This document shows positions 23,778-39,911 of a stretch of DNA of 64,000 nt, in pieces. Made by a program: the position numbers and the translations under genes. The notes under the pieces were generated by a model. That model was given only the letters and a program-made list of their open reading frames with translations. It made no database searches and was not told the DNA's origin. The first letter of the stretch is position 1, and each line of letters opens with the position of its first letter. Source of the stretch: Ruminococcus sp. (GTDB lineage: Bacteria > Bacillota > Clostridia > Oscillospirales > Acutalibacteraceae); NCBI GenBank assembly GCA_017457955.1, contig JAFTGL010000004.1, positions 62,001 through 126,000 on the forward strand. The letters are read 5' to 3'.

Positions 23778-24371
23778 ATGAAAGATTCATTTGCCGATAT
23801 CCTGAAACAAACCAGAAAAGCGAAGAATCTGTCGCAGCAGCAGCTCGCCGAAATGCTGTTCGTTGAGCGTTCCAGCGTTGCGAACTGGGAGTCGGGACGG
23901 CGAACCCCGGACGCCGTGCTGTTGATACGGATCGCCAAATGCCTTGAAATTGACGTCAATCTTCTGCTGGAAGCGATAGACAGCACAGTGGAACAGCCTA
24001 ATATCATCGTGGTGGATGATGAAAGGATCATCCTCAAAGGCGGGATGGATGTGATCTGCAAGCTGCTGCCGAATGCCTCGGTGACCGGCTTTACCTCTCC
24101 CACAGAGGCGCTGACCTTTGCAGAATCCACACGGGTACATTTAGCTTTCTTAGATATAGAAATGGGCAATTTCAGCGGGCTTGATCTTTGCCGCGAGCTG
24201 TTAAAACTCAATCCCCGCATCAACATCATATATCTGACCGCATATGCCGATTATTCGCTGAAGGCGTGGAACACCGGCGCTTGCGGGTATCTCGTCAAGC
24301 CGATTTCACCCGAACAGATACGCGATCAACTCTCGCGATTGAGATTTCCGATGAGGGGGCTGCAGCTATGA
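23778..24371 (+). CDS. XRE helix-turn-helix fused to a response-regulator receiver domain
   Basis: 197 residues in an unusual order: DNA-binding first, receiver second. The HTH (residues 6-60) reads LKQTRKAKNLSQQQLAEMLF then ERSSVANWESGRRTPDAVLL. The receiver (about 75-190) has acidic VVDDERI, the phospho-acceptor Asp in LAFLDIEMGNFSGLD, the Thr in YLTAYADYS and the Lys in GYLVKPIS. All receiver key residues are kept. Its stop overlaps the kinase start (ATGATGA), so they form a coupled two-component pair. Most receivers carry the output domain at the C-terminus, so this arrangement is less common. Confidence 0.85.
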   Translation: MKDSFADILKQTRKAKNLSQQQLAEMLFVERSSVANWESGRRTPDAVLLIRIAKCLEIDVNLLLEAIDSTVEQPNIIVVDDERIILKGGMDVICKLLPNASVTGFTSPTEALTFAESTRVHLAFLDIEMGNFSGLDLCRELLKLNPRINIIYLTAYADYSLKAWNTGACGYLVKPISPEQIRDQLSRLRFPMRGLQL

Positions 24372-25567
24372 TGGATTGGTCTACGGTATTTAATCTTACG
24401 AGCATTTTGACGACATTATTGATAGGCTTCATAGCAATAGTTGTCGCTTTGGTTCTGCGTGATATCGAAAAGTGGTGGCGACGGTATTGTATCGTCTTCT
24501 TCTCTGTTATCGTCGCAAGAAATCTGTTTGATCTTTTTGATTATTTCTTTCTGAATATTACGACGGTCGAAACGATATGCGGTTTCCTGAACACACTGCT
24601 TGCGACGATAATCAACCCGCTGCTGGCGCTCTATATCCTGCACCGCAGCTCTGAGAATATTCGCAGGAGCTTGTACTGGAAACTGAGCTTGATTCTGTGG
24701 GGATTACAGACCACCTTGCTCATCTTCGGTACGCTGACAGGTACTTTCTATACAATTTCGGAATCAATCGAAGATATCCGTTTCGGCTTTACGTTCTATG
24801 CTTATTTGATGGTTGGCGCTGTAGCTCTGGCGGTGAACCTGATCGCTCTGATCCGCAGACGGAAGCATCTTTCAAAGCCGCAGTTCTTCATCATTCTGCT
24901 TTATTATTTCGTACCCAATTCCATCATGGTCCTCCTGATGGAATTGATGATGCTTTTGGATCAGGGAAAGCGGTATCTTACGCAGAAGGAGGAGCTTTCC
25001 CGCCAAAAGGTAAGCAACGCTGTACTGCAAATGCGTCCGCACTTTATCTATAACACCATGACGAGTATCTATTATCTGATCGAGCAGGATTCAGCCAAAG
25101 CCCAGCAGGTCACGCGTGATTTTACTAACTATTTACGAAAAAATTTTACCGCGATCGCAAAAGAGGGAACAGTCCCCTTTGCAGAGGAGCTGGAGCACAC
25201 AGAGGCCTATCTGTCGGTTGAGCTGGCGCGCTTTGAAGGAAAGCTGTTTGTAGATTACGATATATCATATATGTCATTCAGACTGCCGCCTTTGGTTTTA
25301 CAGCCCATCGTAGAAAACGCGGTCAAGCACGGCGTTGATCCCGACCTTGATCCGCTGTATATCACTGTTTCTGCCTGCGAGGGAAAACACGGCGCTGAGA
25401 TCACCGTCACGGATAACGGTCCCGGTTTTGGCGAGCAAGATAATGACGAGCCTCACATCGCGCTTCAAAATATCCGGGAGAGGCTCGAAATGATGTGCAA
25501 AGGTACGCTGGAAATCTCCGACCGTGATGGCGGCGGTACCGTTGTCAAAATAACGATACCTCAATAA
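24368..25567 (+). CDS. LytS/YehU-type membrane histidine kinase
   Basis: 399 residues. Six or seven hydrophobic segments occupy residues about 8-205 (first: LTSILTTLLIGFIAIVVALV). A short coiled linker follows, then the His_kinase box with phospho-His in LQMRPHFIYNTMTSIYYLI, and an HATPase domain with N-box LQPIVENAVKHG and G-box DNGPGFGE. No recognisable extracellular ligand domain is present, so the stimulus is probably sensed in the membrane. It phosphorylates the receiver of the preceding gene by inference. The start overlaps that gene by 4 bp. Confidence 0.85.
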   Translation: MMDWSTVFNLTSILTTLLIGFIAIVVALVLRDIEKWWRRYCIVFFSVIVARNLFDLFDYFFLNITTVETICGFLNTLLATIINPLLALYILHRSSENIRRSLYWKLSLILWGLQTTLLIFGTLTGTFYTISESIEDIRFGFTFYAYLMVGAVALAVNLIALIRRRKHLSKPQFFIILLYYFVPNSIMVLLMELMMLLDQGKRYLTQKEELSRQKVSNAVLQMRPHFIYNTMTSIYYLIEQDSAKAQQVTRDFTNYLRKNFTAIAKEGTVPFAEELEHTEAYLSVELARFEGKLFVDYDISYMSFRLPPLVLQPIVENAVKHGVDPDLDPLYITVSACEGKHGAEITVTDNGPGFGEQDNDEPHIALQNIRERLEMMCKGTLEISDRDGGGTVVKITIPQ

Positions 25568-25799: not shown

Positions 25800-27185
25800 T
25801 TGCAGATCATAAAATCAAAGAGAAAAAAGCCGTGGATGACTCTTGCAGCAGCAATTCTTTTGTTTTTAACAGGTATCGGTTTTATTATTATTAATGAAAT
25901 TGTGATTGAAGCCGTTTTGGTGATTTCGCTTGCTTTTGTTTTGTTCTCTTACGGAATTATAAGATTGGTACGCTGTTGGAAAAGCAATGATTTTTCAAAA
26001 GGCGTTGTTACGATAATTCTGTGTTTTTCTGCGGGAGTTGGTCTGATCGTAGCCGACTATTCGATTAAGAGCGTTGCCGTTCTTCCGAGTATCGCGGTCG
26101 GCGCGGTAGCTGTTATAATAGGTCTGCTCAGGCTGTTAATATGTATCAACTGTATCAAAAACAGAATTAAAGGCGGTATCCGTAACGGGATTTCGGCTTT
26201 GTTCTGTCTTGCGTTCGGTATCCTTCTTCTTGTAAATCCTATCACTAATTTTCAGATCCTTGTAACAGTTGCCGGCTTTTATCTCATTTTTTATGGCATT
26301 ACCATGTTTGCCGATTTTATAGCCGAGATGTCTGAAAGCGATATGGATGAAAACAAAATATACAGAAGAACGCATTTTGCTTTTCCTAATCTTTATACCT
26401 CGCTTCAGCCTTCACAAATGATAGAGCAGATAAACAAAGGCAGGGAAGATGGCAGCATTGTCGGCGGTATGCTTATTGAGCAGAAGCCTGACGCGAAATA
26501 CAAAGACGTAAATGTTGAGATCCTTGTACATCTGACCACCCAGGGCGCAAATAAATTCGGGCATGTCGATCTTGCTGTTAAGGACAAAGTTTACTCTTAC
26601 GGCACATATGACACGAGTACTGTTAAACTGGCAGGCTTCGTTGCGCAGGGCAGCTTCATAATCGTACCTAAAATACCTTATCTGAAATACTGCCTTACTT
26701 ATCAACAAAAATATGTGATAGGCTTCGGAGCTCATCTCTCTGAGAAACAAATCCAAAACATACAGAATAATATTGAAAAATTCCTTTCTGAATGTGAACC
26801 GTTTGAGAGCCCTTATGAACGGGCGGTTAAAAACGGTGAGGACGGCGATAAGCTTGACGACCCCGCAAGCAATGTTGTCCGTGATGTAGGCGGAAAGGTA
26901 TATAGGGTTGTCAAAGGCATGTTCAGAAGGTACTTCGGCATTAACACCAACTGTGTAAAGGCGGCTGATGTATTACTGACAGATTCAGGTATAGACAGAC
27001 TGTCATTCAGCGGCATAAGCACACCGGGTGGTTATTACAGTATGCTGAACGGTATGTTCAAACGCAAAAATACCCGTATCATCCGCAAAACATCCTATAT
27101 TATTGCGGATGAGATAGACGACCTTGATGAGCTCAGAGAACTGGTTAGACAGACAGCAGCTGAAATGTCGTCTGCAAAAGAATAA
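25800..27185 (+). CDS. DUF308 membrane protein with C-terminal papain-like (H...NC) domain
   Basis: 461 residues from a TTG start 7 bp after TGAGGTGA (an alternative TTG is at 25794). The N-terminal third has about six membrane segments in the HdeD/DUF308 pattern (WMTLAAAILLFLTGIGFIII; ISALFCLAFGILLLVNPITN). The soluble C-terminal part has NKFGHVDLAVKDKVYSYGTY about 130 residues before INTNCVKAADVLLTDSG. A His motif preceding an Asn-Cys motif is the layout of circularly permuted NlpC/P60-type (LRAT-like) or DUF4105-type Cys hydrolases. The catalytic claim is inference from these motifs. No operon partner is visible. Confidence 0.6.
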   Translation: MQIIKSKRKKPWMTLAAAILLFLTGIGFIIINEIVIEAVLVISLAFVLFSYGIIRLVRCWKSNDFSKGVVTIILCFSAGVGLIVADYSIKSVAVLPSIAVGAVAVIIGLLRLLICINCIKNRIKGGIRNGISALFCLAFGILLLVNPITNFQILVTVAGFYLIFYGITMFADFIAEMSESDMDENKIYRRTHFAFPNLYTSLQPSQMIEQINKGREDGSIVGGMLIEQKPDAKYKDVNVEILVHLTTQGANKFGHVDLAVKDKVYSYGTYDTSTVKLAGFVAQGSFIIVPKIPYLKYCLTYQQKYVIGFGAHLSEKQIQNIQNNIEKFLSECEPFESPYERAVKNGEDGDKLDDPASNVVRDVGGKVYRVVKGMFRRYFGINTNCVKAADVLLTDSGIDRLSFSGISTPGGYYSMLNGMFKRKNTRIIRKTSYIIADEIDDLDELRELVRQTAAEMSSAKE

Positions 27186-27248
27186 AATCAAATAACTAAA
27201 AAACGGTACAGCTGCATGACATGCCTCCGAAAGTTGGACTTAGTATCG

Positions 27249-27284
27249 AAAGCGTAGTAGTTTAATGACTGCTGCGCTTTTGTT
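27249..27284 (+). terminator. Terminator after the DUF308 gene
   Basis: AAAGCGTAGTAGT (27249-27261) pairs with ACTGCTGCGCTTT (27268-27280, two G-T pairs) around TTAATG, followed by TGTTAT. Confidence 0.65.
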
Positions 27285-27336
27285 ATGCAGTTAAAAGTTT
27301 AATTTTGTAGTTCTTTCAAGGAGTTTTATAATTTGC

Positions 27337-27365
27337 TTGAAAAATGGCTCTTGATGTATTATTAT
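27337..27365 (+). promoter_or_regulatory. Promoter TTGAAA-17-TATTAT of the STAS-NRPS operon
   Basis: -35 TTGAAA at 27337-27342 and -10 TATTAT at 27360-27365 with a 17-bp spacer. This leaves about a 50-base leader before the STAS gene. It looks like a housekeeping (sigma-A) promoter, not one for an alternative sigma factor. Confidence 0.6.
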
Positions 27366-27423
27366 AAAAATGAATAGGTTCATCATGGAAATTTGAGTAC
27401 ATTATCAGGAAAAGAGGTATATC

Positions 27424-27723
27424 ATGACAACAGCTATCAGCTTTGAAAACGATGTTTATACGGTCGTCATCAGCGGCAGGATCGACACGCTTACTGCTCC
27501 CGAGCTGGAACAGACTTTCAAAGAGATCGAACCGAAAGCCAACAAGGTGATCTTTGATATGAACGCGGTCGAATATGTTTCATCCGCAGGCATGAGAGCG
27601 ATCATAGCGGTTCACAGAGCAATGTCCCAAAAGGGCGGGCTGGTACTGCGCGGGCTGACAAAGAATGTGAGAACGATCATCAACCTGACCGGTTTCAACA
27701 AAGTACTGACGATAGAGGAGTAA
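27424..27723 (+). CDS. STAS-domain anti-anti-sigma factor (SpoIIAA/RsbV-like)
   Basis: 99 residues, a complete single STAS domain: VYTVVISGRIDTLTAPELEQ at the N-terminus and the phosphorylation loop NAVEYVSSAGMRAIIAVHRA, with Ser in the DxSS-A-G position (second Ser at about residue 58). In the family this Ser is phosphorylated by an RsbW/SpoIIAB kinase and dephosphorylated by a PP2C phosphatase; both enzyme types are encoded later in the same operon. The gene is 3 bp upstream of the NRPS gene. No cognate sigma factor is present in the window, so the downstream partner is unknown. Confidence 0.9.
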   Translation: MTTAISFENDVYTVVISGRIDTLTAPELEQTFKEIEPKANKVIFDMNAVEYVSSAGMRAIIAVHRAMSQKGGLVLRGLTKNVRTIINLTGFNKVLTIEE

Positions 27724-27726
27724 GCG

Positions 27727-30700
27727 ATGAAAAAATATCCTCTTTCAAAAACGGAATACGGTATTTATATCGAACAGACGGCAAGGGGTAACACTGCATA
27801 TAATCTACCCCTTTTGATCGGACTGCCCGATGATATCGATACGGAACGGTTTGAAAGCGCGGTCACCGCTGTCGTTCAGAACCACCCCGCACTGCTGACC
27901 TCGTTCGGCGTTGACAATAACGGAGAAGTTTACAAATATCACCGCTTTGATACGGTACAGATAGAGCATATCAATACGGACGCCTTTGAGCCGTACGACT
28001 ATGTCGCGCCCTTTGATCTGCATAACGACTGTCTGTGCCGTTTTTTTATTGTGACGACCCCAAGCGGGAAATACTTTTTCTTTGACGTCCATCATATCAT
28101 TTTTGACGGCACTTCGTCGTCGGTGTTTCTCAGTGAGATCGACCGCGTCTATAACGGCGAGGCGATCGCTCCCGAGGACTTTTCCGCTGACGCGTACGCT
28201 GAGGAAGAGCAGCAGCGGCTGAACAGCGACGAGTATCTTGCGGCAAAGAGATATTATCAGAGCGTTTTTGAGGGGGTTGACGTCGACACGGCGTTCTTTA
28301 CCGATCAAAATGAGCGTGAATCGGGCTCAAAGGAAATGAGTTACTCTTTCGGGTCAGTCGATTCATCCGCGTTGAAATCGCTCGCGAAGGCAAACGGTGT
28401 GAAGCTCAGCACGGTATTCAACGCGGCGTTTTCCTATCTGCTGGGCAGGTATACAAACAGCCCGCAGGTGCTGTATTCAACCGTCCATCACGGCAGAGAT
28501 GCAAGGCTGATGCGCTCATTGGGTATGTTTGTCAAGACCTATCCCGTTTACGCTGAACCGTCCGATGATACGCAGATCGGTGATTTTCTGAAAAAACTCG
28601 ACGCACATATCGAGCAGAACCGAAAGAACGATTTGTATTCGTTCGCGGATTTTTGCTCGGATTTTCACCTTAATCCTTCCGTTCTGTTTGCCTATCAGGG
28701 CGATATGATCGAGGAGATCGATTTTTGCGGCGGCAGGCATAAGGTAAAGCTGATTCCGATGAAGGACACGAAGAGCGGCTTTGAACTGACGGTCTGGCGT
28801 GAAAACGGTCTTTTCACAGCACACGCGGAGTACGACCCGAGTCTGTATAACGACGAGGTCGTCCGCGCGATGCTCGAGAGCTTTGATAAGATACTCCACG
28901 ATATGCTGTATGCCGAAAAGCTCGGCGATATCGATATGCTGACAGAGATCCAGCGTAAAAAGCTCGACGAAAACAACCGTCACGAAAAGGAGTATGAGAT
29001 CACCGATATCGTGACGCTCTTCCGCAGACAGGCGGCAAAATCCCCCGATCATATTGCGGCGGTATATCTTGATAAGCAAATCTCCTACGGTGAGATAGAT
29101 CGGATCACGGAGAATATCGCGGCTTTCCTGCACGGTAAAGGCGTCGGCAGGGAGGATGTTGTATCCATCCTGATACCGCGCGGCGAGTTCATGCCGATCG
29201 CATCACTCGGCGTTCTCAAGGCGGGCGCCGGTTATCAGCCGCTTGATCCGAGCTATCCGGTCGAGCGACTGGAATTCATGGTCAAGGACGCGTCCGCAAA
29301 ATACGTGATCGCCGACCGAGGGCTGATGGACAGACTGCCGAACTATGAGGGTCCCGTACTGTATACGGACGAGATCGCCTCACTGCCGACGGCTGAAACA
29401 CAGATCGGTTCTCCCGCACCGGAGGACTTGTTTATCATGCTCTACACCTCCGGCTCTACCGGAGTTCCCAAGGGCGTGATGCTGGAGCACCGCAATCTTT
29501 GCTGCTTCTGCGAATGGTACCGCAGCTTCTACAAGCTTGACGAAAACAGCCGCGTCGCCGCCTACGCAAGCTACGGCTTTGACGCCTGCATGATGGATAT
29601 GTATCCCGCGCTGACAAGCGGCGCGCAGGTACATATCATCGCCGAGGAGATCAGACTTGACCTGCTGGCGATCAAAGACTATTTCTATAAAAACCGTATT
29701 ACTCACAGCTTTATGACGACGCAGGTCGGCAGACAGTACGCCGATCTGTTCCCAGACGCTCTATACCCGCACCATCTCTCGACGGGCGGCGAAAAACTCG
29801 TTCCGATCGAACCACCCACGGGTTACAGCTTCTATAACGCCTACGGTCCGACCGAATGTACGATCTTCACAAATCTGTACAAAGTTGACAGGCTGTACGA
29901 GCGTGTTCCGATCGGAAAACCGCTTGATAATCTCAAGCAGTATGTCGTGGACAGCAAAATGCGAAGAGTTCCCGCAGGAGTGCCCGGGGAACTGATTGTC
30001 GCGGGACATCAGGTGAGCAGAGGTTACCTCAATCGACCCGAACAAAAAGCCTTTATCGACAATCCCTTTGAGAGCGAAAAGGGATATGAAAAAGCCTATC
30101 GCACCGGCGACGTCGTCCGTATGCTTCCCGACGGCGTTATCGACTTCGTCGGCAGAAATGACGGTCAGGTGAAGATACGCGGCTTCCGTATCGAGCTCTC
30201 CGAGGTGGAGGGTATCATCCGCAAGTTCAAGGGGATCAAGGACGCTACCGTACAGGCGTTTGACGAAAACGGCGGCGGCAAATTCATCGCGGCATATATC
30301 GTATCGGATGAAACGGTCGATATCGGCGCTCTCAATGCCTTTATCAAAGAGAACAAGCCGCCGTATATGGTGCCTGCCGTCACGATGCAGATCGACCGCA
30401 TCCCGCTCAACCAGAACCAAAAGGTCAACAAGCGCGCCCTGCCTGTACCCGAGAAGCAGGCGGAGGAAACCGTCCCGCCCGAGAACAAAGTCCAGCAGAG
30501 GATATTTGACTGTATCGCAGAGGTTATCGGTACCCGCAATTTCGGTATCACCACCGATATCTTTGACGCGGGACTGAATTCGATCGGCGCGATCAAGCTG
30601 AACGTCCTGCTTTCAAACGAATTCAACGTTCCCGTTGCGATACAGGATCTGCGCAAAAACAGCACCGTGAAAGCGCTCGAAGCATTTTTGATAAGCGCAG

Positions 30701-33700
30701 AGCAGACTAAGGCCTATGACATACAGCCCGACTATCCCATCACACAGACCCAGAACGGTATCTTTGTCGCCTGTATCGCTGAGCCGAATACGACGATGTA
30801 TAACATCCCGTTCCTGATCACCCTGAGCGATCAGGTGGATATCGTCCGGCTGCAGAAGGCGGTAAACGACGCCTTCGCGGCTCACCCGTATCTGCATACG
30901 ACTCTGTTCATGAATGAGCGGGGGGATATCCGCGCAAAGCGTGAGGACAGCGATCCTGTCACTATTGCCGTTGAACAGGTCGGTACCATACCGCCGCAAG
31001 ACGAGCTGGTGCGCCCGTACGACCTGATGGGCGACAGATTATGCAGGGCGGTCATTTATCAGACAGAATCGGGTAATTATCTGTTCCTCGACTTCCACCA
31101 TATCATCTTTGACGGCGCGAGCGCGGCAGTTCTCCTGCAGGATATCGCGGATGCGTATGACGGCAAAGAAATCAAAAAAGAGACCTTCACCGGCTTTGAA
31201 GCCGCTTTGGCTGAGAATGAAAAACGTAATTCTGAGCAATATCAAAAGGCGAAAGCCTACTATGATTCGATCTTCCGCGGATGTGACTCCGACTGCCTGC
31301 CCAAGGCTGACCGCAGCGGGGAGAAGGAAAGCTCCGGCTTCTATACCAAGCAGACCGAAACTCCGATCGCGCCGATCCGCAGATGGTGCGAGCGCAACGG
31401 CGTGACGCTGAACGCCTTCTTCAACGCGGTGTTCGGCTATGTTGTCAGCCGATACAACTTCTCTGACGAAGCGGTCTTTACTACGATCTACAACGGACGA
31501 AGCGGCTCCGAGAGCGTCCGCAGTACGGGCATGTTCGTCAAGACCCTGCCTGTGTACTGCAATATCGACCCTCAGCTCAGCGTCAGCGAATATGTCAAGG
31601 CGGTCGGCGATCAGCTGATCGGCAGCATGGAGAACGATATTTACTCTTTCTCAGAGATCGCCGCGGAATATGAGATTCAGCCCGATATCTCGATCGCTTA
31701 TCAGGATGAGCTGACCGAAGCTGTGATCCTCGGCGGAGAGACCTGCAAGCTGGAAATGCTCACCCTCGATACTGCAAAATTCCCGTTGTCGGTCGACGTC
31801 TATCTCAGCGGCGGCAAGCTGCGCCTGATGGCGGAGTACCGCGCTGATATGTTCAGCGAAGCGCTGATCTGCGGCTTTGTCGACGCGATCGAGACGGCGG
31901 CGGCACGGTTCATCGCAGATCAAAAGCTCAGCGGCATTTCATTGCTGACCGAAAAAGAAGCTGAGGCGATCGCTGCGTTCAACACGACCGACTATCCCGT
32001 TGAGCTTTGCAGTATCCCCGCTCTCTTTGAACGACAGGTGCAAAAAGCGCCCGACCGTGTCGCTGTGATCGCCGACGGCGTTCAGCTGACTTATTGGGAA
32101 CTTAACGAAAGAGCGAACCGTATCGCTCATACGCTGCTCGATCAGGGCATCGTACTTGGCGAGACGGTCGGTATGCTCCTGCCGCGCACCGTTGACGCGA
32201 TCGCGGCTGAGTACGGTATCATGAAAGCCGGCGGCGCGTTCCTGCCTATGCTGCCGTCCTATCCCGACGACCGTATCGACTATTGCCTGACCGACTCCTC
32301 GAGCCGTTTTGTGATCACGACCGACGAGATCCTCTCTGAGAGAAGCGGTCTGCTGCTCGGCAAGGCATATGAGCCGCTGACTGTAAGCAAACTGTATCAA
32401 AATGATGCGATTAGCGACCCCGATATTGAAATACCGACCGATTCGTTAGCCTATTGTATCTATACCTCCGGTTCGACCGGCACCCCTAAGGGCGTGATGA
32501 TCGAGCACGGCAACCTGTGCAACTTTGTCAATGCTAACCCCCTGAACCACGAGACGGTCAACTTTGTTTCCTGCGGTTCTGTCGCACTGTCGGTAGCGGC
32601 ATTCTCGTTTGACTTCTCGCTGATGGAGATCCACATCACCCTGTGCAACGGCATGACGCTGTGTATCGCAGGAGACGACGAGATCCATAATCCGCTCCTG
32701 CTGGCGCAGATGATCGAGAAGTATGACGTAGACGTTATGTCCGGTACGCCGTCCTTCTTCGCAAATGTACTGGATATCCCACAGGCGGCAAAAGCGCTGA
32801 AAAACATCGGTATGTATGATCTCGGTGCAGAGGCATTCCCGCCCGCGTTATATGGGAAGCTGCGCAAGGCAAGCCCCAAAGCCGTGATCGTCAACGGCTA
32901 CGGTCCTACCGAAGCGACGATCAGCTGTATCTCTAAGGTGGTGGAGAGTCCCGATCACATTACCATCGGTACCCCTGCCGCCAACGTGCACGCATACATC
33001 TTTGATAAATGCGGCAATCTGCTGCCGATGTGCGCTAAGGGCGAGCTGGTCATCGGCGGTTTAGGGGTAGGCAGAGGCTACGTGAACCTGCCCGACAAGA
33101 CTGCCGACGTGTTCATCACTGTGAACGGCGAGCGCGCCTACCGCACGGGAGATATAGCGCGCATCGACTCCTTCGGCGAGATCGAGTTCTTCGGCAGACT
33201 GGATAATCAGGTGAAGCTCAGAGGACTGCGCGTCGAGCTGGACGAGATCGTCAACGTCATGCAGACCTGCAGCGGCGTCAAGCACGCGATCGTCATCGTC
33301 AGGGGAGAGGGGGAACAGCAGTATCTCTGCGCCTATTATACCACCGACGGTACTGTCGTGGAAAAGGACGCGCTGGTCGCTCATATGAAGCAGTCTCTCG
33401 CGCATTATATGATCCCATCCGTGTTCGTACAGCTTGACGAGATCCCGCTGACAAGCAACGGAAAAATCGATAAAAAGGCGCTTCCCGAGCCTGAATTCAC
33501 ACAGGAAAGGCATGAGGGCAAAGCGCCCGCGACCGCTTTGCAAAAACAGCTTTGTGAGATATTCGCCTATGCTCTCGGCACGGACGCTGTCAATGCCGAC
33601 GACAACTTCTTTGAGATCGGCGGCACCTCGCTGCTCGCATCAAAGGTCGCGGTCAGAGCGATGGCGGAGGATCTGCCGATCGCCTTCAAGGATGTGTTCG

Positions 33701-34953
33701 ACTATCCCACCGCCATTGAGCTGGAAGAATATATCAACCGCTCGAACGAAGCTCAGACAGCTACAGAAGCAGAGCAATCCGTATCGGAGTCTTCCGCGCT
33801 CGCTCACAATGTCAACGCTTATGTCGATGAGATCCATGGTGAAGAGATCGGCGATATCCTGCTGACCGGCGCTACGGGTTTCCTCGGTGCGCATGTACTG
33901 CGTCATCTGATCGGGCATACCGATAAAAAAATCTACTGCTTACTGCGCGGCGGCAGCGATACCCCCGACAATAAGCTGAAAAATATCCTGATGTATTACT
34001 TTGAAACGCCGTATGAGGAGTTTTTCGGCGACCGTATCATTACTGTCAGCGGTGATATCACCGATCGGGACGGCGTGATGAAGCTCGCTGATATCGGGTT
34101 TGGCTGCGTCATCAACTGTGCCGCCTGCGTCAAACACTTTGTTCAGGACGACAGCCTTGAGCGCATCAACTGGCACGGTGTGGAGAACCTGATCGACCTG
34201 TGTGTTGAAACAGGCCGCAGACTGGTGCAGGTATCTACCGTCAGCGTCGCCGGCACCAGCGTCAACGGCGCGTTCAGCGTCGATAGAAAGATCCGCGAGA
34301 ACGAGCTGTTCTTCGGTCAGAACCTTGACAATAAATATGTTTATACCAAGTTCAAGGCGGAGGAAAGCCTTCTCAGGGCGATCGAGGAACGCGGTCTGGA
34401 CGGCAAGATCGTCCGCGTCGGCAATCTGATGAGCCGATACAGCGACGGGCTGTTCCAGATCAACTCCGTCACCAATGGATTTATGCGCAGTCTGCGCGCT
34501 TATGCGGCGCTCGGTGTGATTTCCGTGTCGGCGCTCGACGAGCTGGTCGAGTTCTCGCCGATCGACTGTACCGCTTCCGCTGTCGTGACCCTCGCGTCCG
34601 CGAACAGTGACTTTACGGTGTTCCACGCGACCAACGGTCACCGTGTCCAGATGGGCGACGTGATCGAGGCGATGAACCAAAGCGGTATCAGGATCGATAT
34701 CGTCAGCGCGTCGGAATTCGGCAGAGCCTTCAACAATGCGCTGAACGATGAAAAGCTCAGCGAGGCTGTATCTCCGCTGATCTCCTATCAGGCGTCGGAT
34801 CAGAACACGGTCGAATTCTTTATTGATTATGACAACGCCTTTACCACCAAGGCACTGTACCGGCTCGGCTTCAAGTGGCCGATCATCAACGAGGATTATC
34901 TTAAAAACGTGTTTGATTCTCTCGATTCTCTCGCGTTCTTTGACGAGGTTTGA
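27727..34953 (+). CDS. Two-module NRPS with terminal thioester reductase (C-A-T-C-A-T-R)
   Basis: 2408 residues. Order by position: condensation-type domain about 1-420 (HHIIFDG near 121); adenylation 427-925 (YTSGSTGVPKG near 571); carrier about 930-1000 (GLNSIGA, Ser near 950); condensation 1003-1420 (HHIIFDG near 1123); adenylation 1429-1930 (YTSGSTGTPKG near 1578); carrier about 1935-2010 (GGTSLLAS near 1966); reductase 2040-2408 (TGATGFLG near 2046, Tyr-Lys in YVYTKFKAE near 2205). All core motifs are intact. The product is loaded, joined and released as an aldehyde by NAD(P)H. The leading C domain suggests an acyl-capped start. By eye the A-domain pocket residues read D-A-M-F-S-G-A-I-F and D-F-M-S-D-G-G-I-S, so I cannot name the amino acids. 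Similar gut NRPS clusters make dipeptide aldehyde protease inhibitors and pyrazinones. Confidence 0.92.
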   Translation: MKKYPLSKTEYGIYIEQTARGNTAYNLPLLIGLPDDIDTERFESAVTAVVQNHPALLTSFGVDNNGEVYKYHRFDTVQIEHINTDAFEPYDYVAPFDLHNDCLCRFFIVTTPSGKYFFFDVHHIIFDGTSSSVFLSEIDRVYNGEAIAPEDFSADAYAEEEQQRLNSDEYLAAKRYYQSVFEGVDVDTAFFTDQNERESGSKEMSYSFGSVDSSALKSLAKANGVKLSTVFNAAFSYLLGRYTNSPQVLYSTVHHGRDARLMRSLGMFVKTYPVYAEPSDDTQIGDFLKKLDAHIEQNRKNDLYSFADFCSDFHLNPSVLFAYQGDMIEEIDFCGGRHKVKLIPMKDTKSGFELTVWRENGLFTAHAEYDPSLYNDEVVRAMLESFDKILHDMLYAEKLGDIDMLTEIQRKKLDENNRHEKEYEITDIVTLFRRQAAKSPDHIAAVYLDKQISYGEIDRITENIAAFLHGKGVGREDVVSILIPRGEFMPIASLGVLKAGAGYQPLDPSYPVERLEFMVKDASAKYVIADRGLMDRLPNYEGPVLYTDEIASLPTAETQIGSPAPEDLFIMLYTSGSTGVPKGVMLEHRNLCCFCEWYRSFYKLDENSRVAAYASYGFDACMMDMYPALTSGAQVHIIAEEIRLDLLAIKDYFYKNRITHSFMTTQVGRQYADLFPDALYPHHLSTGGEKLVPIEPPTGYSFYNAYGPTECTIFTNLYKVDRLYERVPIGKPLDNLKQYVVDSKMRRVPAGVPGELIVAGHQVSRGYLNRPEQKAFIDNPFESEKGYEKAYRTGDVVRMLPDGVIDFVGRNDGQVKIRGFRIELSEVEGIIRKFKGIKDATVQAFDENGGGKFIAAYIVSDETVDIGALNAFIKENKPPYMVPAVTMQIDRIPLNQNQKVNKRALPVPEKQAEETVPPENKVQQRIFDCIAEVIGTRNFGITTDIFDAGLNSIGAIKLNVLLSNEFNVPVAIQDLRKNSTVKALEAFLISAEQTKAYDIQPDYPITQTQNGIFVACIAEPNTTMYNIPFLITLSDQVDIVRLQKAVNDAFAAHPYLHTTLFMNERGDIRAKREDSDPVTIAVEQVGTIPPQDELVRPYDLMGDRLCRAVIYQTESGNYLFLDFHHIIFDGASAAVLLQDIADAYDGKEIKKETFTGFEAALAENEKRNSEQYQKAKAYYDSIFRGCDSDCLPKADRSGEKESSGFYTKQTETPIAPIRRWCERNGVTLNAFFNAVFGYVVSRYNFSDEAVFTTIYNGRSGSESVRSTGMFVKTLPVYCNIDPQLSVSEYVKAVGDQLIGSMENDIYSFSEIAAEYEIQPDISIAYQDELTEAVILGGETCKLEMLTLDTAKFPLSVDVYLSGGKLRLMAEYRADMFSEALICGFVDAIETAAARFIADQKLSGISLLTEKEAEAIAAFNTTDYPVELCSIPALFERQVQKAPDRVAVIADGVQLTYWELNERANRIAHTLLDQGIVLGETVGMLLPRTVDAIAAEYGIMKAGGAFLPMLPSYPDDRIDYCLTDSSSRFVITTDEILSERSGLLLGKAYEPLTVSKLYQNDAISDPDIEIPTDSLAYCIYTSGSTGTPKGVMIEHGNLCNFVNANPLNHETVNFVSCGSVALSVAAFSFDFSLMEIHITLCNGMTLCIAGDDEIHNPLLLAQMIEKYDVDVMSGTPSFFANVLDIPQAAKALKNIGMYDLGAEAFPPALYGKLRKASPKAVIVNGYGPTEATISCISKVVESPDHITIGTPAANVHAYIFDKCGNLLPMCAKGELVIGGLGVGRGYVNLPDKTADVFITVNGERAYRTGDIARIDSFGEIEFFGRLDNQVKLRGLRVELDEIVNVMQTCSGVKHAIVIVRGEGEQQYLCAYYTTDGTVVEKDALVAHMKQSLAHYMIPSVFVQLDEIPLTSNGKIDKKALPEPEFTQERHEGKAPATALQKQLCEIFAYALGTDAVNADDNFFEIGGTSLLASKVAVRAMAEDLPIAFKDVFDYPTAIELEEYINRSNEAQTATEAEQSVSESSALAHNVNAYVDEIHGEEIGDILLTGATGFLGAHVLRHLIGHTDKKIYCLLRGGSDTPDNKLKNILMYYFETPYEEFFGDRIITVSGDITDRDGVMKLADIGFGCVINCAACVKHFVQDDSLERINWHGVENLIDLCVETGRRLVQVSTVSVAGTSVNGAFSVDRKIRENELFFGQNLDNKYVYTKFKAEESLLRAIEERGLDGKIVRVGNLMSRYSDGLFQINSVTNGFMRSLRAYAALGVISVSALDELVEFSPIDCTASAVVTLASANSDFTVFHATNGHRVQMGDVIEAMNQSGIRIDIVSASEFGRAFNNALNDEKLSEAVSPLISYQASDQNTVEFFIDYDNAFTTKALYRLGFKWPIINEDYLKNVFDSLDSLAFFDEV

Positions 34954-34954
34954 T

Positions 34955-36709
34955 ATGCAGAGAAATGACTATCTGATCAAACGCAAGTTCAACAGCTATC
35001 TGATCCCTGGCGTGCTGATGGTCATGGCGATGCAGCTGGGCAATATCGTCGACAGTATTCTGGTCAGCAATACCATCGATATCGACGGTATGACGGCAAT
35101 ATCCCTGAGCCTTCCGGTGCTGTATTTTACCCAGATCGTCGGCTTTGCCGTCGGCGTCGGCGGTGCGGTGACGATCTCCGTCATGCTCGGCAAACGGCAG
35201 ATCAAAGAGGCGTCTGGCGTGCTGTCTGTCTGTATCGCCGCGGATATCGGATTGTCTTTGATCTTCACGATACTCGCGCCCTTTACGGCTTCACCTTTGG
35301 CGCACATGCTCGCGCAGACGCCGAGACTCGAAGAGCTTTTGATGCCGTACATCTATGTGTATATGCTGGGTACGCCGCTGTTGAATCTGTGTATACTGAC
35401 GTCTAATGTCATTACGATCGATAACTGCCCCAAGCTCGGCGCTTCCTGCTTTGTGATCGCGAACATCGTTAACCTGGGTCTTGACTGGTATTTCCTGACG
35501 CAGACAGGACTCGGTATGTACGGCGCCGCGCTGTCTACGATCATCGGTTACGGAGTCGGCTGTCTCATATTGATCCCATACGCTTTTTCAAAAAAGCGTA
35601 TGCTGTCCCTGAAGCTCAGGGAGGGCTTTCGTCAGATAAAATCCTTCCCGCGGGTCTTGAAAGCCGGCATGACACAGGCTTCTTATCTGATCATGCTGAT
35701 CCTGCAGTATTTTATACTCAATACCTATATCCAAAGCACGCTCGGCGCGGATCAGACGGCGATCTATTCCATGTGCATGAATTCCGTAGAGATCGTCAGA
35801 CTGTGTATCGAAGGCGTCATCGGCGTGATCCAGACGATCGCCGGCGTTCTGTTCGGCGAGAAGGACTATTTCGGAATCCGACGGCTGGTCAGACGGACGG
35901 TCATCATTACTGCTGTCGCGGTTGCCGTACTGACGGCGGTATACATGATCTTCCCGGATTTGATCCTTACGATATTCTCCTTCAATAAAGCTCAGCTTTA
36001 TGAAATCGCAAAGCTGTGTGTACGCCTGTTCAGCCTGTCTTTCATCTTCTTTGCGGCGAATCGGGTGACGCAGGTCTATTATCAGACCACGCTGAAAACC
36101 TCGCTGTCAACGCTGGATACCGTGCTGCAGGGCTTTGTCTTTCTGCTGCCGCTGTCGATCCTGTTTATCGGCAGCCTCGGTATCACGGGTGTCAGCATTG
36201 CCGCCGCGCTGACCGAAGCGCTGACCTTTGCCGCGGTATGGTGCTGGCGGATGTTCCGGCAAAAGCGCGGCAAACTGCCGCAGAAGGGCTTTTTGATGAT
36301 ACCGGATACCGACAGCGACAGCCTGTGTGATATCACCGTCAAAAACACCGAGCAGGATGCGGTCGAAGTGTCAAAAAGACTGATCCGCTCCTGTGAAGAA
36401 AGCGGCGTTCCGTCCGAGACGGCGGGTATCATCGGCGTCGCCGCGGAGGAGCTCGCAGTAAATATCTCGCGCTATGGCAGCAAAAAGCCGAGCCTGAGCT
36501 ATGTCGACGTCAATCTGTCCAGATCGGGCGACAAGCTGATCCTGCGGGTGCGTGACGACGGTGTGCCGTTCGATCCGACCGAGTATAACGCGGACGAGGG
36601 CGACGAATTTCTGATCGGCGGGATCGAGATGATCCGCCGTATTACCGACAAGATCAGTTATACCCGTGTACTCAACATGAACAATACGGTGATCGAGGTC
36701 TCTATATGA
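34955..36709 (+). CDS. MATE-family exporter fused to an RsbW-type kinase domain
   Basis: 584 residues. Residues 1-440 are a MATE/MOP transporter with about 12 membrane segments: YLIPGVLMVMAMQLGNIVDS opens it, GVGGAVTISVMLGKRQIKEA follows. Residues about 460-584 are an HATPase_c domain of the anti-sigma kinase type, with N-box AAEELAVNISRYG, VRDDGVPFDPTEYN and IGGIEMIRRITDKISY. The ATG at 34955 is 1 bp after the NRPS stop. Export of the NRPS product is inferred from position; kinase activity on the STAS protein is inferred from the domain. A single frame spans both parts with no internal ribosome site, so the fusion is real at the sequence level. Confidence 0.88.
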   Translation: MQRNDYLIKRKFNSYLIPGVLMVMAMQLGNIVDSILVSNTIDIDGMTAISLSLPVLYFTQIVGFAVGVGGAVTISVMLGKRQIKEASGVLSVCIAADIGLSLIFTILAPFTASPLAHMLAQTPRLEELLMPYIYVYMLGTPLLNLCILTSNVITIDNCPKLGASCFVIANIVNLGLDWYFLTQTGLGMYGAALSTIIGYGVGCLILIPYAFSKKRMLSLKLREGFRQIKSFPRVLKAGMTQASYLIMLILQYFILNTYIQSTLGADQTAIYSMCMNSVEIVRLCIEGVIGVIQTIAGVLFGEKDYFGIRRLVRRTVIITAVAVAVLTAVYMIFPDLILTIFSFNKAQLYEIAKLCVRLFSLSFIFFAANRVTQVYYQTTLKTSLSTLDTVLQGFVFLLPLSILFIGSLGITGVSIAAALTEALTFAAVWCWRMFRQKRGKLPQKGFLMIPDTDSDSLCDITVKNTEQDAVEVSKRLIRSCEESGVPSETAGIIGVAAEELAVNISRYGSKKPSLSYVDVNLSRSGDKLILRVRDDGVPFDPTEYNADEGDEFLIGGIEMIRRITDKISYTRVLNMNNTVIEVSI

Positions 36710-38676
36710 GAAAATCTATCTTTTTTAAACTTGCTTTGCTGATCATACCCATTGTCATCCTGCTGGACGCGGCGGTGCTGTTTGTATCCTACAGGCTCAC
36801 CTATGATAATCAGGTCGAAGTTAGCACGGATACGATCGAAAGAGCCGCTGAGATGGCTGAGATCTACATGGAGCTTAACTATCCGGACACCGTTGAAAAA
36901 GGGCAGGAAGTTTCTGGGTATTTTTATAACTTGTGCGCTGCTATGGGTATCTCCTATATCTACGCTATCGCTCCCGACGCCGAGAATGACAGCATGTATT
37001 ATGTCGCGATCGGCTTCGGTGACGGCGCGTCGGATCAGGCTAAGAAAGACCGCTACCCCGGGGTAACGGTCAATCAGTCGCCGACTAAGGAAATGATGGA
37101 TGCCTGCAGCGGCGACGGCTCCGGAGTGATCGAGCATTATCAGAACCAATTCGGTGATATGGTAGCGTACTATTTGCCGGTGACCGAGTATTATGATTAT
37201 GACCGGCGCGAATATGTAAAACCGGAAAAGCCGGTCGTCGTTGCCGCCGAAGAGAATATCTCCTCTATCGTAGAGAGGATCCAGAGAAGGATCAAAACGA
37301 TCGCGGTCTTTACAATCCTGTTTTCTATGCTGATCGTTGTTTTGATCTTTCTGCTTATGTATTTCAGGATCTCCAAACCCATAACAAGGATCAGCAGGCG
37401 AATGAAGAACTTTGTATCCGACCGTGATAAGGGCGTTGAAAAGCTGAAGGTCAAGGGTCATGACGAGCTGGCGGAGATGTCGCAGTCATTCAATATGATG
37501 ACGGACGAGATCGACGGCTACATCCGCAATATCGACGCCTTGAACAGAGAGAAGCATATGCAGGACGCTGAGCTGAACATTGCCCGCAAGATCCAGTCGG
37601 GACTGCTCAAGCCTTCCTTTTACCGCGACGGCAGTGTCGAACTGCGCGCCTTTATGCATGAGGCGAAGAATGTCGGCGGCGATCTGTATGACTATCAAAC
37701 GCTCGATGACGGCAGGGTGTTCATCTGTATTGCCGACGTCTCGGGCAAGGGTATTTCGGCGGCGCTGTTCATGTCGCGCGCTATCACCCTGCTGCACCAG
37801 TACGCGCTTCTCGGCTATACTCCCGCACAAATGCTCAAAGAATACAATCATACACTTGCAGAGCAGAACCCGAACGGGCTGTTCATCACGACCCTTGCCG
37901 CGGTTTATGATCCCAAAACGAATGAGCTGACTTATTCGAACGCCGGTCATAACCATCCGTATCTCATATCGGATACGCTGATCGAGCTGGACGGCGCCGC
38001 CGGGATCGCGGCAGGTATTTTCGACGGTATGGATTATGAGCAGGAGACGATCGCTCTCAAAGACGGCGACGTGGTGTTCCTGTACACCGACGGTGTGAAT
38101 GAGGCTGAGGACAACTCGGGCAAGATGTACGGCACAGAGGCGTTAGAAGCTGAACTGAAAAAGTTTATCGGTGTGGCAGACGGGGATATCTGTGACGCGA
38201 TAATGAAGTCGGTCAAAGCGTTTTCCGACGGCGCTGATCAAAGCGACGATATCACGATCCTGACGCTGAAAGCAGAACGATCGCCTGTACATTGTGAGAT
38301 CACCGTAAAGAATCAAGTTGAGAATCTTACGAAAATAAATGAGATCATCAACGCTCAACGGCTCGATGAAGAGACACGATCACAACTCCTGCTGATTGCG
38401 GAAGAGCTGTTTGTCAATATCTGCTTCTATGCCTATAAGGATAAGCAGGGAGAAATCACGTTTGCGGTCGATCGTGAAAACGATCGTATCATTCTGACCT
38501 TTACGGACGCGGGAGAACCCTTTGATCCGACTGCCGACGTGATCAACATTGAAGAATATGATCATGAAAACAGCACCGGCGGACTTGGTCTGTTTATGGT
38601 GTTTGAAATGGCAGACGATTATTCATATACCTATGAAGACGGGAAAAACAGGATCAAAGTTATCAAAAAAATATAG
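36706..38676 (+). CDS. Membrane PP2C (SpoIIE/RsbU) phosphatase fused to an RsbW-type kinase domain
   Basis: 656 residues. TM1 about 8-28 (LALLIIPIVILLDAAVLFVS); an extracellular sensor region about 29-200 (likely Cache-like); TM2 about 201-221; HAMP to about 275; SpoIIE-type PP2C about 289-525 with NIARKIQSGLLKP, NVGGDLYDY and IADVSGKGISAALF; HATPase about 530-656 with IAEELFVNICFYAY, FTDAGEPFDPTAD and GGLGLFMV. PP2C metal-binding Asp residues (GGDLYD, ADVSGKG, DGADQSDD) are kept. It should dephosphorylate the STAS protein while its own C-terminal kinase opposes it. Starts inside the MATE gene (4-bp ATGA overlap). Confidence 0.9.
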   Translation: MRKSIFFKLALLIIPIVILLDAAVLFVSYRLTYDNQVEVSTDTIERAAEMAEIYMELNYPDTVEKGQEVSGYFYNLCAAMGISYIYAIAPDAENDSMYYVAIGFGDGASDQAKKDRYPGVTVNQSPTKEMMDACSGDGSGVIEHYQNQFGDMVAYYLPVTEYYDYDRREYVKPEKPVVVAAEENISSIVERIQRRIKTIAVFTILFSMLIVVLIFLLMYFRISKPITRISRRMKNFVSDRDKGVEKLKVKGHDELAEMSQSFNMMTDEIDGYIRNIDALNREKHMQDAELNIARKIQSGLLKPSFYRDGSVELRAFMHEAKNVGGDLYDYQTLDDGRVFICIADVSGKGISAALFMSRAITLLHQYALLGYTPAQMLKEYNHTLAEQNPNGLFITTLAAVYDPKTNELTYSNAGHNHPYLISDTLIELDGAAGIAAGIFDGMDYEQETIALKDGDVVFLYTDGVNEAEDNSGKMYGTEALEAELKKFIGVADGDICDAIMKSVKAFSDGADQSDDITILTLKAERSPVHCEITVKNQVENLTKINEIINAQRLDEETRSQLLLIAEELFVNICFYAYKDKQGEITFAVDRENDRIILTFTDAGEPFDPTADVINIEEYDHENSTGGLGLFMVFEMADDYSYTYEDGKNRIKVIKKI

Positions 38677-38736
38677 GAGAAGAACTGCCGATAGCTGAGT
38701 AATCATACAACCCGATTATCTTGTTTTATACGGCAA

Positions 38737-38767
38737 AACAGCGGTGAGACGAGGTCTCACCGCTGTT
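38737..38767. terminator. Bidirectional terminator, 14-bp perfect stem
   Basis: AACAGCGGTGAGAC (38737-38750) and GTCTCACCGCTGTT (38754-38767) around GAG. It ends both the NRPS operon and the convergent permease gene, whose stop lies inside it. The 12-bp core is the same as in the terminator at 5595. Confidence 0.85.
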
Positions 38768-39911
38768 TGCGCTTTGTGATGGTTTGATAGATTTTGACGG
38801 AATAGTAACATGACGCCGCCGTTAATACGATCAGCTCCGCTGTGCAGATCGTAAAGGAGATCCAAAACAGCTCGGACAGATAGGTACTGCCGCACCACAG
38901 ATTGGTATGCGCTGTCTGCAAGGTCGTTTTGAACGCGTCCAGATAGTGGCTGATCTCAAAGATATTATCGTAGGGGATATAGCTCTGCGGGAGAACCAGC
39001 CTCGGCGGGAAGATGAAAAAGAGTGCCGTGGGAACGGCGATCAGCAGGATCATAGCGAGAATACGGAGCAGGATGAAACCGATATTTCTCTTGAATACCG
39101 TCGGGTAATAATCCTTTTGACTGTCGGTTTTTAATTTGCGTCTTGTTTGCGCGATCAGCTTTGTGATGAGCTTGATCGCAATAACGGTTAGAATGACGGC
39201 AATCACCGAGATGAGCAGATTAGGAAGGTTAGCGAGGATATCTCTCTTAATGGATAGATCGTTCTCCATGAAAAAGCCGGTATCTGTTTCTGTCATCCCG
39301 AGCAAGGGCATCGTCTTTTCGGAGTACGCGCCTTTGGGAGCCGAGACGGTGTCGACGGAGATATCGGCATATCCGTCATAACAGGTGTAGGGGATATAAA
39401 CGCGGTCGTAGATATCCGAAGAGATCTCCCGCAGGAAACCGTTCGGTTTTGTGTATACGCCTGTGACGGTGAACTCTCTGCCGTAAAGCGGGATCGTCTG
39501 ACCGACAACGTCGGCGTTGAGTCTTAAACTGCGGGCGGCACGGTCGCTGATCACGACGGCGGGGAGCTTTTTGTCGATATGCTCAGCCGTGATGGGAGAG
39601 CCTGCGACATAGATATCATAGACGGAAAAGTAGTTTTCGTTGACCAGAACCGGTCTGACCTCGCCGATACCTTCGACCGTTACGGGGTCAAGCTCACTGC
39701 ATATCGACAGCTTCTCTCTGTAGGAGGTGTTCGGCAGCTTCTCATAGGTCGAAAAAGTGATCCCGCCCGACAGTCGACTGCGGTTGTATTCCAGTATGTC
39801 GGGAAGCTCGGCAGAGACCGAAAACGCCGTCACAAAGAAGTGAACCGCCGCGATCAGGACAAGGATGCCGAAGATCCACAGCCCGATATGCTTTTTTCTG
39901 CGCTCAGTCAT
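38757..39911 (-). CDS. MacB/FtsX-like permease (no ATPase partner nearby)
   Basis: 384 residues. An N-terminal helix (LWIFGILVLIAAVHFFVTAF) precedes an extracytoplasmic region about 35-230 of MacB_PCD type: NENYFSVYDIYVAGSPITAE, then PAVVISDRAARSLRL and VVGQTIPLYGREFTVTGVYT. Three membrane segments follow at about 230-253, 275-297 and 355-375. This is the layout of macrolide-export-type permeases. No ATPase gene accompanies it. Overlaps the adaptor-like gene by 8 bp (start within its end). Substrate unknown. Confidence 0.75.
   Translation of the reverse strand: MTERRKKHIGLWIFGILVLIAAVHFFVTAFSVSAELPDILEYNRSRLSGGITFSTYEKLPNTSYREKLSICSELDPVTVEGIGEVRPVLVNENYFSVYDIYVAGSPITAEHIDKKLPAVVISDRAARSLRLNADVVGQTIPLYGREFTVTGVYTKPNGFLREISSDIYDRVYIPYTCYDGYADISVDTVSAPKGAYSEKTMPLLGMTETDTGFFMENDLSIKRDILANLPNLLISVIAVILTVIAIKLITKLIAQTRRKLKTDSQKDYYPTVFKRNIGFILLRILAMILLIAVPTALFFIFPPRLVLPQSYIPYDNIFEISHYLDAFKTTLQTAHTNLWCGSTYLSELFWISFTICTAELIVLTAASCYYSVKIYQTITKRKQR

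Follow-up and report, generated by a model that had tools for sequence, protein, structure and literature searches.

Partner switching is best known for freeing sigma factors, though a few other outputs exist. The RsbU/RsbV/RsbW and SpoIIE/SpoIIAA/SpoIIAB systems combine a STAS protein carrying a conserved serine, an RsbW-type kinase and a PP2C phosphatase; RsbV and SpoIIAA dock on their partner when unphosphorylated. The same parts were found in a 64-kb stretch of a Ruminococcus sp. genome (the window; C1:62001-126000 of genome G000, an assembly of 1.83 Mb that is 74% complete), where they share an operon-like array with a nonribosomal peptide synthetase (NRPS) and a MATE exporter. Unlike those systems, the window holds no sigma factor, and a second RsbW-like domain, without G2, is carried by the transporter. 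We lean slightly towards a partner switch with a membrane transporter as its output, in which STAS phosphorylation would gate peptide export. The chances appear even for the broader proposition that in Clostridia and their relatives STAS/PP2C/kinase switches act on transporters through a catalytically dead RsbW-like receiver, in at least two unrelated families (MATE, C-terminal; SDF, N-terminal); that NRPS peptide export is the commonest use of such a switch among the loci examined belongs to the same joint reading.

Rv1364c (3ke6), an RsbU-RsbW fusion, resembles the window's phosphatase in having PP2C and then an RsbW domain in one chain; unlike it, the window protein is a membrane protein with an ectodomain and HAMP, and its STAS partner is a separate gene. 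Another point of comparison is indigoidine, an NRPS product. Its production in Vogesella is affected by TciKR, a protein with an RsbW-like domain which, unlike the window's proteins, is a REC-RsbW response regulator and, in the available portion of the source, has neither an RsbV homologue nor a transporter fusion (PMC12826045). STAS phosphorylation controls type III secretion in BtrU/V/W, and SypE/SypA governs biofilm formation; as far as the accessible parts of these papers go, no transporter-fused RsbW-like domain like that of the window is described there (PMC8256260, PMC12826045). In SLC26/SulP, according to the same partly available source, the STAS domain is part of the transporter and required for function (PMC8256260), whereas in the window STAS is a free protein and the fusion partner is the RsbW-like domain. 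Among the literature matches listed (titles and abstract openings, with most subscription papers outside), there were no transporter-fused RsbW-like domains and no partner-switched NRPS operons.

Organization of the Operon and Integrity of the Switch Proteins

The features of the locus are as follows:
27337..27365, + strand: promoter-like site TTGAAA-17-TATTAT (consensus match only)
27424..27723, + strand: STAS protein, RsbV/SpoIIAA-like, 99 aa (open reading frame (ORF), Pfam, alignment)
27727..34953, + strand: NRPS, 2408 aa, C-A-T-C-A-T-R (ORF, Pfam, NCBIfam)
33862..34581, + strand: terminal reductase (NAD_binding_4) of the NRPS, residues 2046-2285 (Pfam)
34955..36709, + strand: MATE exporter with C-terminal HATPase_c_2, 584 aa (ORF, Pfam, profile and fold comparison)
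36320..36706, + strand: RsbW-like domain fused to MATE, G2 GxG missing, proposed STAS receiver (alignment, motif search)
36706..38676, + strand: 656-aa membrane PP2C: ectodomain, HAMP, RsbW-type kinase domain at the C-terminus (ORF, Pfam, fold comparison)
37705..38271, + strand: PP2C (SpoIIE) match, residues 334-522 (Pfam, alignment)
38335..38667, + strand: RsbW-type kinase domain with intact N, G1 and G2 motifs (Pfam, motif, structure-profile match)
38736..38768, + strand: 15-bp hairpin 3' of the last gene, possible transcript end (folding)

The gene identities given in the initial annotation (STAS, 2408-aa C-A-T-C-A-T-R NRPS, MATE with HATPase_c_2, membrane PP2C with HATPase_c_2) were confirmed by ORFs and Pfam, as were its spacings from the sequence: 3 bp between STAS and NRPS, 1 bp between NRPS and MATE (TGA-T-ATG, MATE start at 34955), and a 4-bp ATGA overlap at the MATE-PP2C junction. 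Its single operon behind one promoter holds in part. The array is operon-like, and the four genes are bounded by the promoter-like site, directly upstream of the STAS gene, and a strong hairpin. The former is weak evidence, because a scan of 27100-38900 on both strands gave 16 sites against 10.5 in shuffles (standard deviation 3.7). The hairpin (a 71-nt stretch folding at -32 kcal/mol, z -6.65) was missed by a terminator scan because it lacks the T run which that scan requires. Chance or annotation error as the source of the gene set is ruled out by the strong Pfam and fold evidence and by recurrence in many loci.

The STAS protein matches Pfam STAS at 3.5e-15. Its Ser54 (codon 27583-27585), a position that we take to be the phospho-acceptor, is invariant in 39/39 aligned sequences (the window's protein, 37 of the 51 relatives found and the genome's own SpoIIAA) and corresponds in this SpoIIAA to the first Ser of DSSG. 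In the PP2C protein, Pfam detects HAMP, SpoIIE (2.4e-52) and HATPase_c_2 (1.6e-17), while nothing is matched in the ectodomain, even with the threshold relaxed to E 5. Residues D326 (just N-terminal to the SpoIIE match), D344, D462 and D515, presumably metal ligands, are invariant in the 16 aligned proteins, a set made up of the window protein plus 15 of 38 relatives found. The best structural match of the PP2C-kinase protein is Rv1364c, the fold matches being taken up by the PP2C domain; the fused kinase domain retains GxG and has a weak sequence match to RsbW (6m36; E 0.0041). The set of partner-switching parts is complete, as previously claimed: STAS with the conserved Ser, an RsbW-type kinase with N/G1/G2 and PP2C with its Asp set. 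Since these residues and motifs are kept, the writer, the eraser and the phospho-acceptor look intact, and the pump domain looks like a reader.

The reported lack of a cognate sigma factor beside the switch genes also stands: Sigma70_r2 has no match in the window, and contig C1 has a single one, at 177856. This absence bars only the classical sigma-controlling type, because known members have other outputs. Genome-wide, there are 17 Sigma70_r2 matches, one inside a separate SpoIIAA-SpoIIAB-SigF operon, which excludes identity of the locus as the sporulation switch. Together with the canonical RsbU/V/W parts, these matches are what speaks for ordinary partner switching, where an unlinked transcription regulator, such as a sigma factor, would be controlled and the operon would be a target or a neighbour. 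We consider this unlikely, given the window free of Sigma70_r2 and a SigF that already has its own SpoIIAA and SpoIIAB; it also leaves unexplained the RsbW-like fusions on two kinds of transporters and the loss there of an ATP motif kept in the neighbouring kinases.

Degeneration of the Transporter-Fused Domains

Hidden Markov models (HMMs) built from the window's domains were run on the named loci and on further loci of relatives, and Pfam was applied to part of the neighbouring genes. The window's pump has MatE matches above the cut-off in two stretches and HATPase_c_2 at 6.3e-11, and its top Foldseek matches are MATE structures (TMt 0.85-0.87 in the first four). HATPase domains from L006-L085 were aligned, duplicates being collapsed to a single entry. 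The 24 PP2C-fused and the 14 solo domains all retain the N-box Glu/Asn and the G1 Asp/Gly; among MATE-fused domains, the N-box is present in 61/72 and G1 in 57/72. The GxG motif, sought in the 22 residues before the conserved Tyr independently of alignment columns, occurs in 24/24 PP2C-fused and 13/14 solo domains versus 4/72 MATE-fused ones (L026, L032, L048, and L081), and the window's MATE-fused domain lacks it. GG is present in 28 of the 72, two residues nearer the Tyr in 27, with a second Gly following in only 3. A motif near the domain end, NN[TLMIFV], distinguishes 59/72 MATE-fused from 0/24 PP2C-fused domains. Against RsbW/SpoIIAB structures, the MATE+HATPase profile matches over the first part of the HATPase domain only, to profile position 539 or 536. 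The two domains had been described as equivalent RsbW-type kinases, which the GxG distribution contradicts: on motif evidence the two HATPase domains differ, "kinase" is the wrong word for the MATE-fused one, and the latter is probably a worn-out STAS receiver.

Two further arrangements of such domains were observed. L084:805-1239 encodes a HATPase domain of 144 aa that stands alone; it belongs to the MATE-fused type, lacks GxG and is 34% identical to residues 446-582. Its frame is closed by stops with no MATE match before it, and it is the one solo domain without GxG. In L033, L036, and L037 (two Lachnospiraceae and one Eubacterium), two MATE+HATPase genes flank a STAS gene, and in the second copy the N-box Asn and the G1 Asp are missing as well.

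In L094, from another family of the order, an SDF symporter takes the place of MATE, before a STAS-NRPS-PP2C-kinase operon. This protein matches Pfam SDF at 7e-66; its N-terminal domain is weakly matched by the HATPase HMM (20 bits) and has no HATPase match by Pfam. Further SDF fusions were sought in 394 genomes of the order. Among 18 distinct SDF-fused domains, the N-box Asn is kept in 2, the G1 Asp in none and an aligned GxG in none, the L094 domain having one G.G string that is out of register; judged by these residues, the SDF-fused HATPase-like domain is even more degenerate than the MATE-fused one. Symporters of this kind lie near STAS, PP2C or kinase genes in L130, L132, L133, L135, L137, L139, and L142. 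Where MATEK, PP2CK and SDFK denote MATE+HATPase, PP2C+kinase and SDF+HATPase, and K a kinase domain, the orders are K-PP2C-SDFK-STAS (L132), K-STAS-SDFK-PP2C (L137, PP2C first on its strand), SDFK-STAS-K (L139), and STAS-SDFK-MATEK (L135), and L142 likewise shows a switch neighbourhood. No switch gene was found within 5 kb of SDF+HATPase in L131, L136, and L138.

Neighbourhoods of Fused and Plain Transporters

As controls, we took the surroundings of plain transporter places in related genomes, 20 for MATE and 16 for SDF. Across all loci, a gene was counted if 2.5 kb or more was available on both sides, which drops 2/20 MATE and 4/16 SDF control places. A switch gene (STAS, PP2C or kinase) lies within 5 kb of 42/62 MATE+HATPase versus 1/21 plain MATE genes, the lone positive (L132) adjoining an SDF+HATPase module, and of 8/11 SDF+HATPase versus 0/12 plain SDF genes. 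For an NRPS inside the same 5 kb, the counts are 45/62 MATE+HATPase, 0/21 plain MATE, 1/11 SDF+HATPase, and 0/12 plain SDF genes. Fisher p values are 2.9e-7 (switch genes) and 1.2e-9 (NRPS) for MATE and 3.4e-4 (switch genes) for SDF, with related sequences not independent and plain genes coming partly from different genomes. The MATE+HATPase loci were reached via similarity to the window protein; some loci entered through reductase or MATE matches, and none was selected for switch genes.

These counts also bear on the idea that the MATE-fused domain is a working kinase which would report pump state or substrate to STAS, with the PP2C protein as antagonist. Transporters are known in general to serve as sensors, and most MATE-fused domains keep the N-box and G1, with GxG in four. 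The GxG motif is, however, missing in 68/72, and SDF-fused domains that have lost nearly all of the N-box Asn, G1 Asp and aligned GxG still keep the switch-gene neighbourhood in 8/11, so that catalysis seems unselected; we regard a sensor role as improbable.

Recurrence in Related Genomes

With the MATE+HATPase protein as query, 43 named loci were obtained, spread over Ruminococcus and other Clostridia, Selenomonadaceae, Lachnospiraceae, Oscillospiraceae, Clostridiaceae, Erysipelotrichaceae, and other Bacilli. The window's MATE gene has its nearest named relatives in uncultured Ruminococcus/Clostridiales genomes, many with RUG names. The window's order STAS-NRPS-MATEK-PP2CK recurs in L007, L008, and L010-L012. 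Elsewhere the order varies, including NRPS-MATEK-STAS with PP2CK on the opposite strand (L013 and L015), K-PP2C-NRPS-MATEK-STAS (L020 and L022), NRPS-MATEK-STAS-PP2CK (L039 and L044), and K-STAS-MATEK-NRPS (L055-L057, with frames broken in L056).

An NRPS lies within 3 kb of 58 of the 78 distinct MATE+HATPase genes. For 25 of the 78, an NRPS, a reductase, STAS, PP2C and a non-MATE kinase domain are all present, and 10 show none of NRPS, reductase, STAS, PP2C or kinase, to which contig ends may contribute. For the 41 genes flanked by 7 kb or more on each side, an NRPS is within 3 kb in 31 cases and a switch gene within 12 kb in 26. The 148 genomes (the window's own included) contain 59 reductase-domain places, a broken gene in G084 being counted twice, and 43 of these are no farther than 11 kb from a member of the top 61 MATE+HATPase matches. 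Ten of the other 16 were examined: six have switch genes (L086, L088, L089, L091, L093, and L094) and four have none in view (L087, L090, L092, and L095), where L087 and L092 start at a contig end and the L095 protein is of another type (991 aa). MATE+HATPase genes with switch trios also occur in genomes without a reductase-domain match (L066 and L080); L098 was not counted as an NRPS-free trio, since G081, from which it comes, carries an NRPS on a different contig (L090). A module specific to NRPSs is ruled out by L066, L080 and the SDF+HATPase loci. The proposal of a circuit dedicated to one natural product fails as well, because the set occurs with several NRPS architectures, without an NRPS and beside SDF transporters; judged by gene content, the putative gating of peptide export is a wider circuit than that.

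Several observations weigh against the pump as the output. Fifteen of the 78 MATE+HATPase genes (L009, L017, L018, L023-L029, L034, L038, L048, L054, and L059; several on short contigs) lie 3 kb or less from an NRPS, but no switch gene is in view up to 12 kb away, and every Selenomonadaceae/Selenomonadales locus (L023-L028) is among them. For L018, 1.8 kb more reaches the contig end. The NRPS had filled the upstream flank in several; STAS, PP2C and HATPase were not found in extra flanks of L026 (14.0 kb), L028 (17.5 kb), L048 (16.0 kb), and L034 (17.5 kb), which partly overlap the original loci, and the absence is therefore real in at least four loci. Homologous NRPS loci among close relatives do not consistently lack switch genes, although these four do. 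STAS and PP2C are encoded elsewhere in 12/12 genomes checked, including those of L018, L026-L028, L034, and L048, so that in loci without linked switch genes the switch would act in trans. L070, L086, L088, L089, L091, and L093 combine switch genes and an NRPS with no MATE+HATPase in view and hence need another output. Finally, since N-box, G1 and some GxG motifs are kept, MATE-fused domains may bind nucleotide or have weak kinase activity.

The six loci just named would suit a switch in which STAS gates the NRPS itself, for example by binding the megasynthase and affecting synthesis, the MATE domain being a second, antagonistic kinase. The STAS gene is 3 bp upstream of the NRPS in the window, and 14 of the 69 STAS genes counted directly adjoin an NRPS gene. 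More often, however, STAS adjoins a HATPase-bearing transporter (25 MATE and 6 SDF), in a count confined to loci with such a transporter. The trios in L066 and L080, the single NRPS within 5 kb of the 11 SDF+HATPase genes and the synthetase, on which Pfam detects NRPS domains only, argue in the same direction, and we rate control of the NRPS as quite unlikely. By gene arrangement and motifs, the pump rather than the NRPS is the best-supported target. The suggestion that STAS phosphorylation gates synthesis or export thus survives in its non-sigma output and in export as one option, synthesis being less supported; the earlier interpretation was right in spirit and is partly supported.

Proposed Mechanism

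In the transporter-output switch, the PP2C-kinase protein would sense an external signal through its ectodomain; its RsbW-type domain would phosphorylate Ser54 of STAS, and its PP2C domain would remove the phosphate. STAS in one state, most likely unphosphorylated, would dock on the RsbW-like domain of the MATE pump, which, with its ATP-binding glycine motif lost, would act as a receiver. Docking may either open or close the pump. The NRPS and the pump would be made together, and export would be gated after translation. We infer phosphorylation, docking, gating and signal from the sequences; observed directly are the gene content, the spacing, the intact key residues, the GxG loss on MATE, the HATPase-transporter association and the SDF recurrence. 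If a dead RsbW-like pump domain does read the STAS state, partner switching could control transport directly, without transcription. NRPS peptides of gut bacteria include protease-inhibiting aldehydes, and the operon would offer a handle on the timing of NRPS peptide release by gut and rumen bacteria. These gene sets are small, and purified domains would allow them to be tested.

NRPS and Its Predicted Product

By Pfam, the NRPS contains two Condensation, two AMP-binding and two PP-binding domains and one NAD_binding_4 (reductase), i.e., two C-A-T modules with the reductase last, which places it in the reductive-release type. Its top NCBIfam match is AusA (aureusimine synthetase, NF047350) at 1144.7 bits; assignment to AusA was ruled out, the cut-off being 2500. 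Gut bacteria, including R. bromii, make NRPS dipeptide aldehydes such as ruminopeptin and N-octanoyl-Met-Phe-H, and in the available parts of these sources no switch genes are mentioned, unlike the situation in the window (PMC12327764, PMC8518294). Because these known gut NRPSs are analogous, as far as the same sources extend, the product is probably a dipeptide released by reduction (PMC12327764, PMC8518294). An N-acyl dipeptide aldehyde or a derived pyrazinone is the inferred form.

Other Switch-Associated Loci

The host has a second NRPS-linked switch set at 3822-9172 of L070 (G000:C2:60000-79000), comprising STAS, a 996-aa A-T-C NRPS-like protein, PP2C and a solo kinase, with no MATE+HATPase in view. 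L070-like sets with MATE+HATPase are found in L064, L067, and L078, with a carboxylesterase next in L064 and L078. At 8427-19900 of L069 (G000:C15:1-19900), STAS adjoins a carboxylesterase, and a PP2C-kinase follows about 7 kb on; PF01648 (PPTase) was matched only once in this 74% complete genome, at C15:19638, about 2 kb past this PP2C-kinase. L077:9812-11416 encodes one protein with STAS, APH and HATPase_c_2 matches, adjoining a MATE+HATPase gene. Upstream of the window's operon, 24188-25567 encodes a sensor kinase with His_kinase/HATPase_c, to which the RsbW-type HATPase_c_2 model gives no match. In a close relative (L006/L072), the NRPS frame is broken, and the STAS, MATE+HATPase, and PP2C+kinase frames are open.

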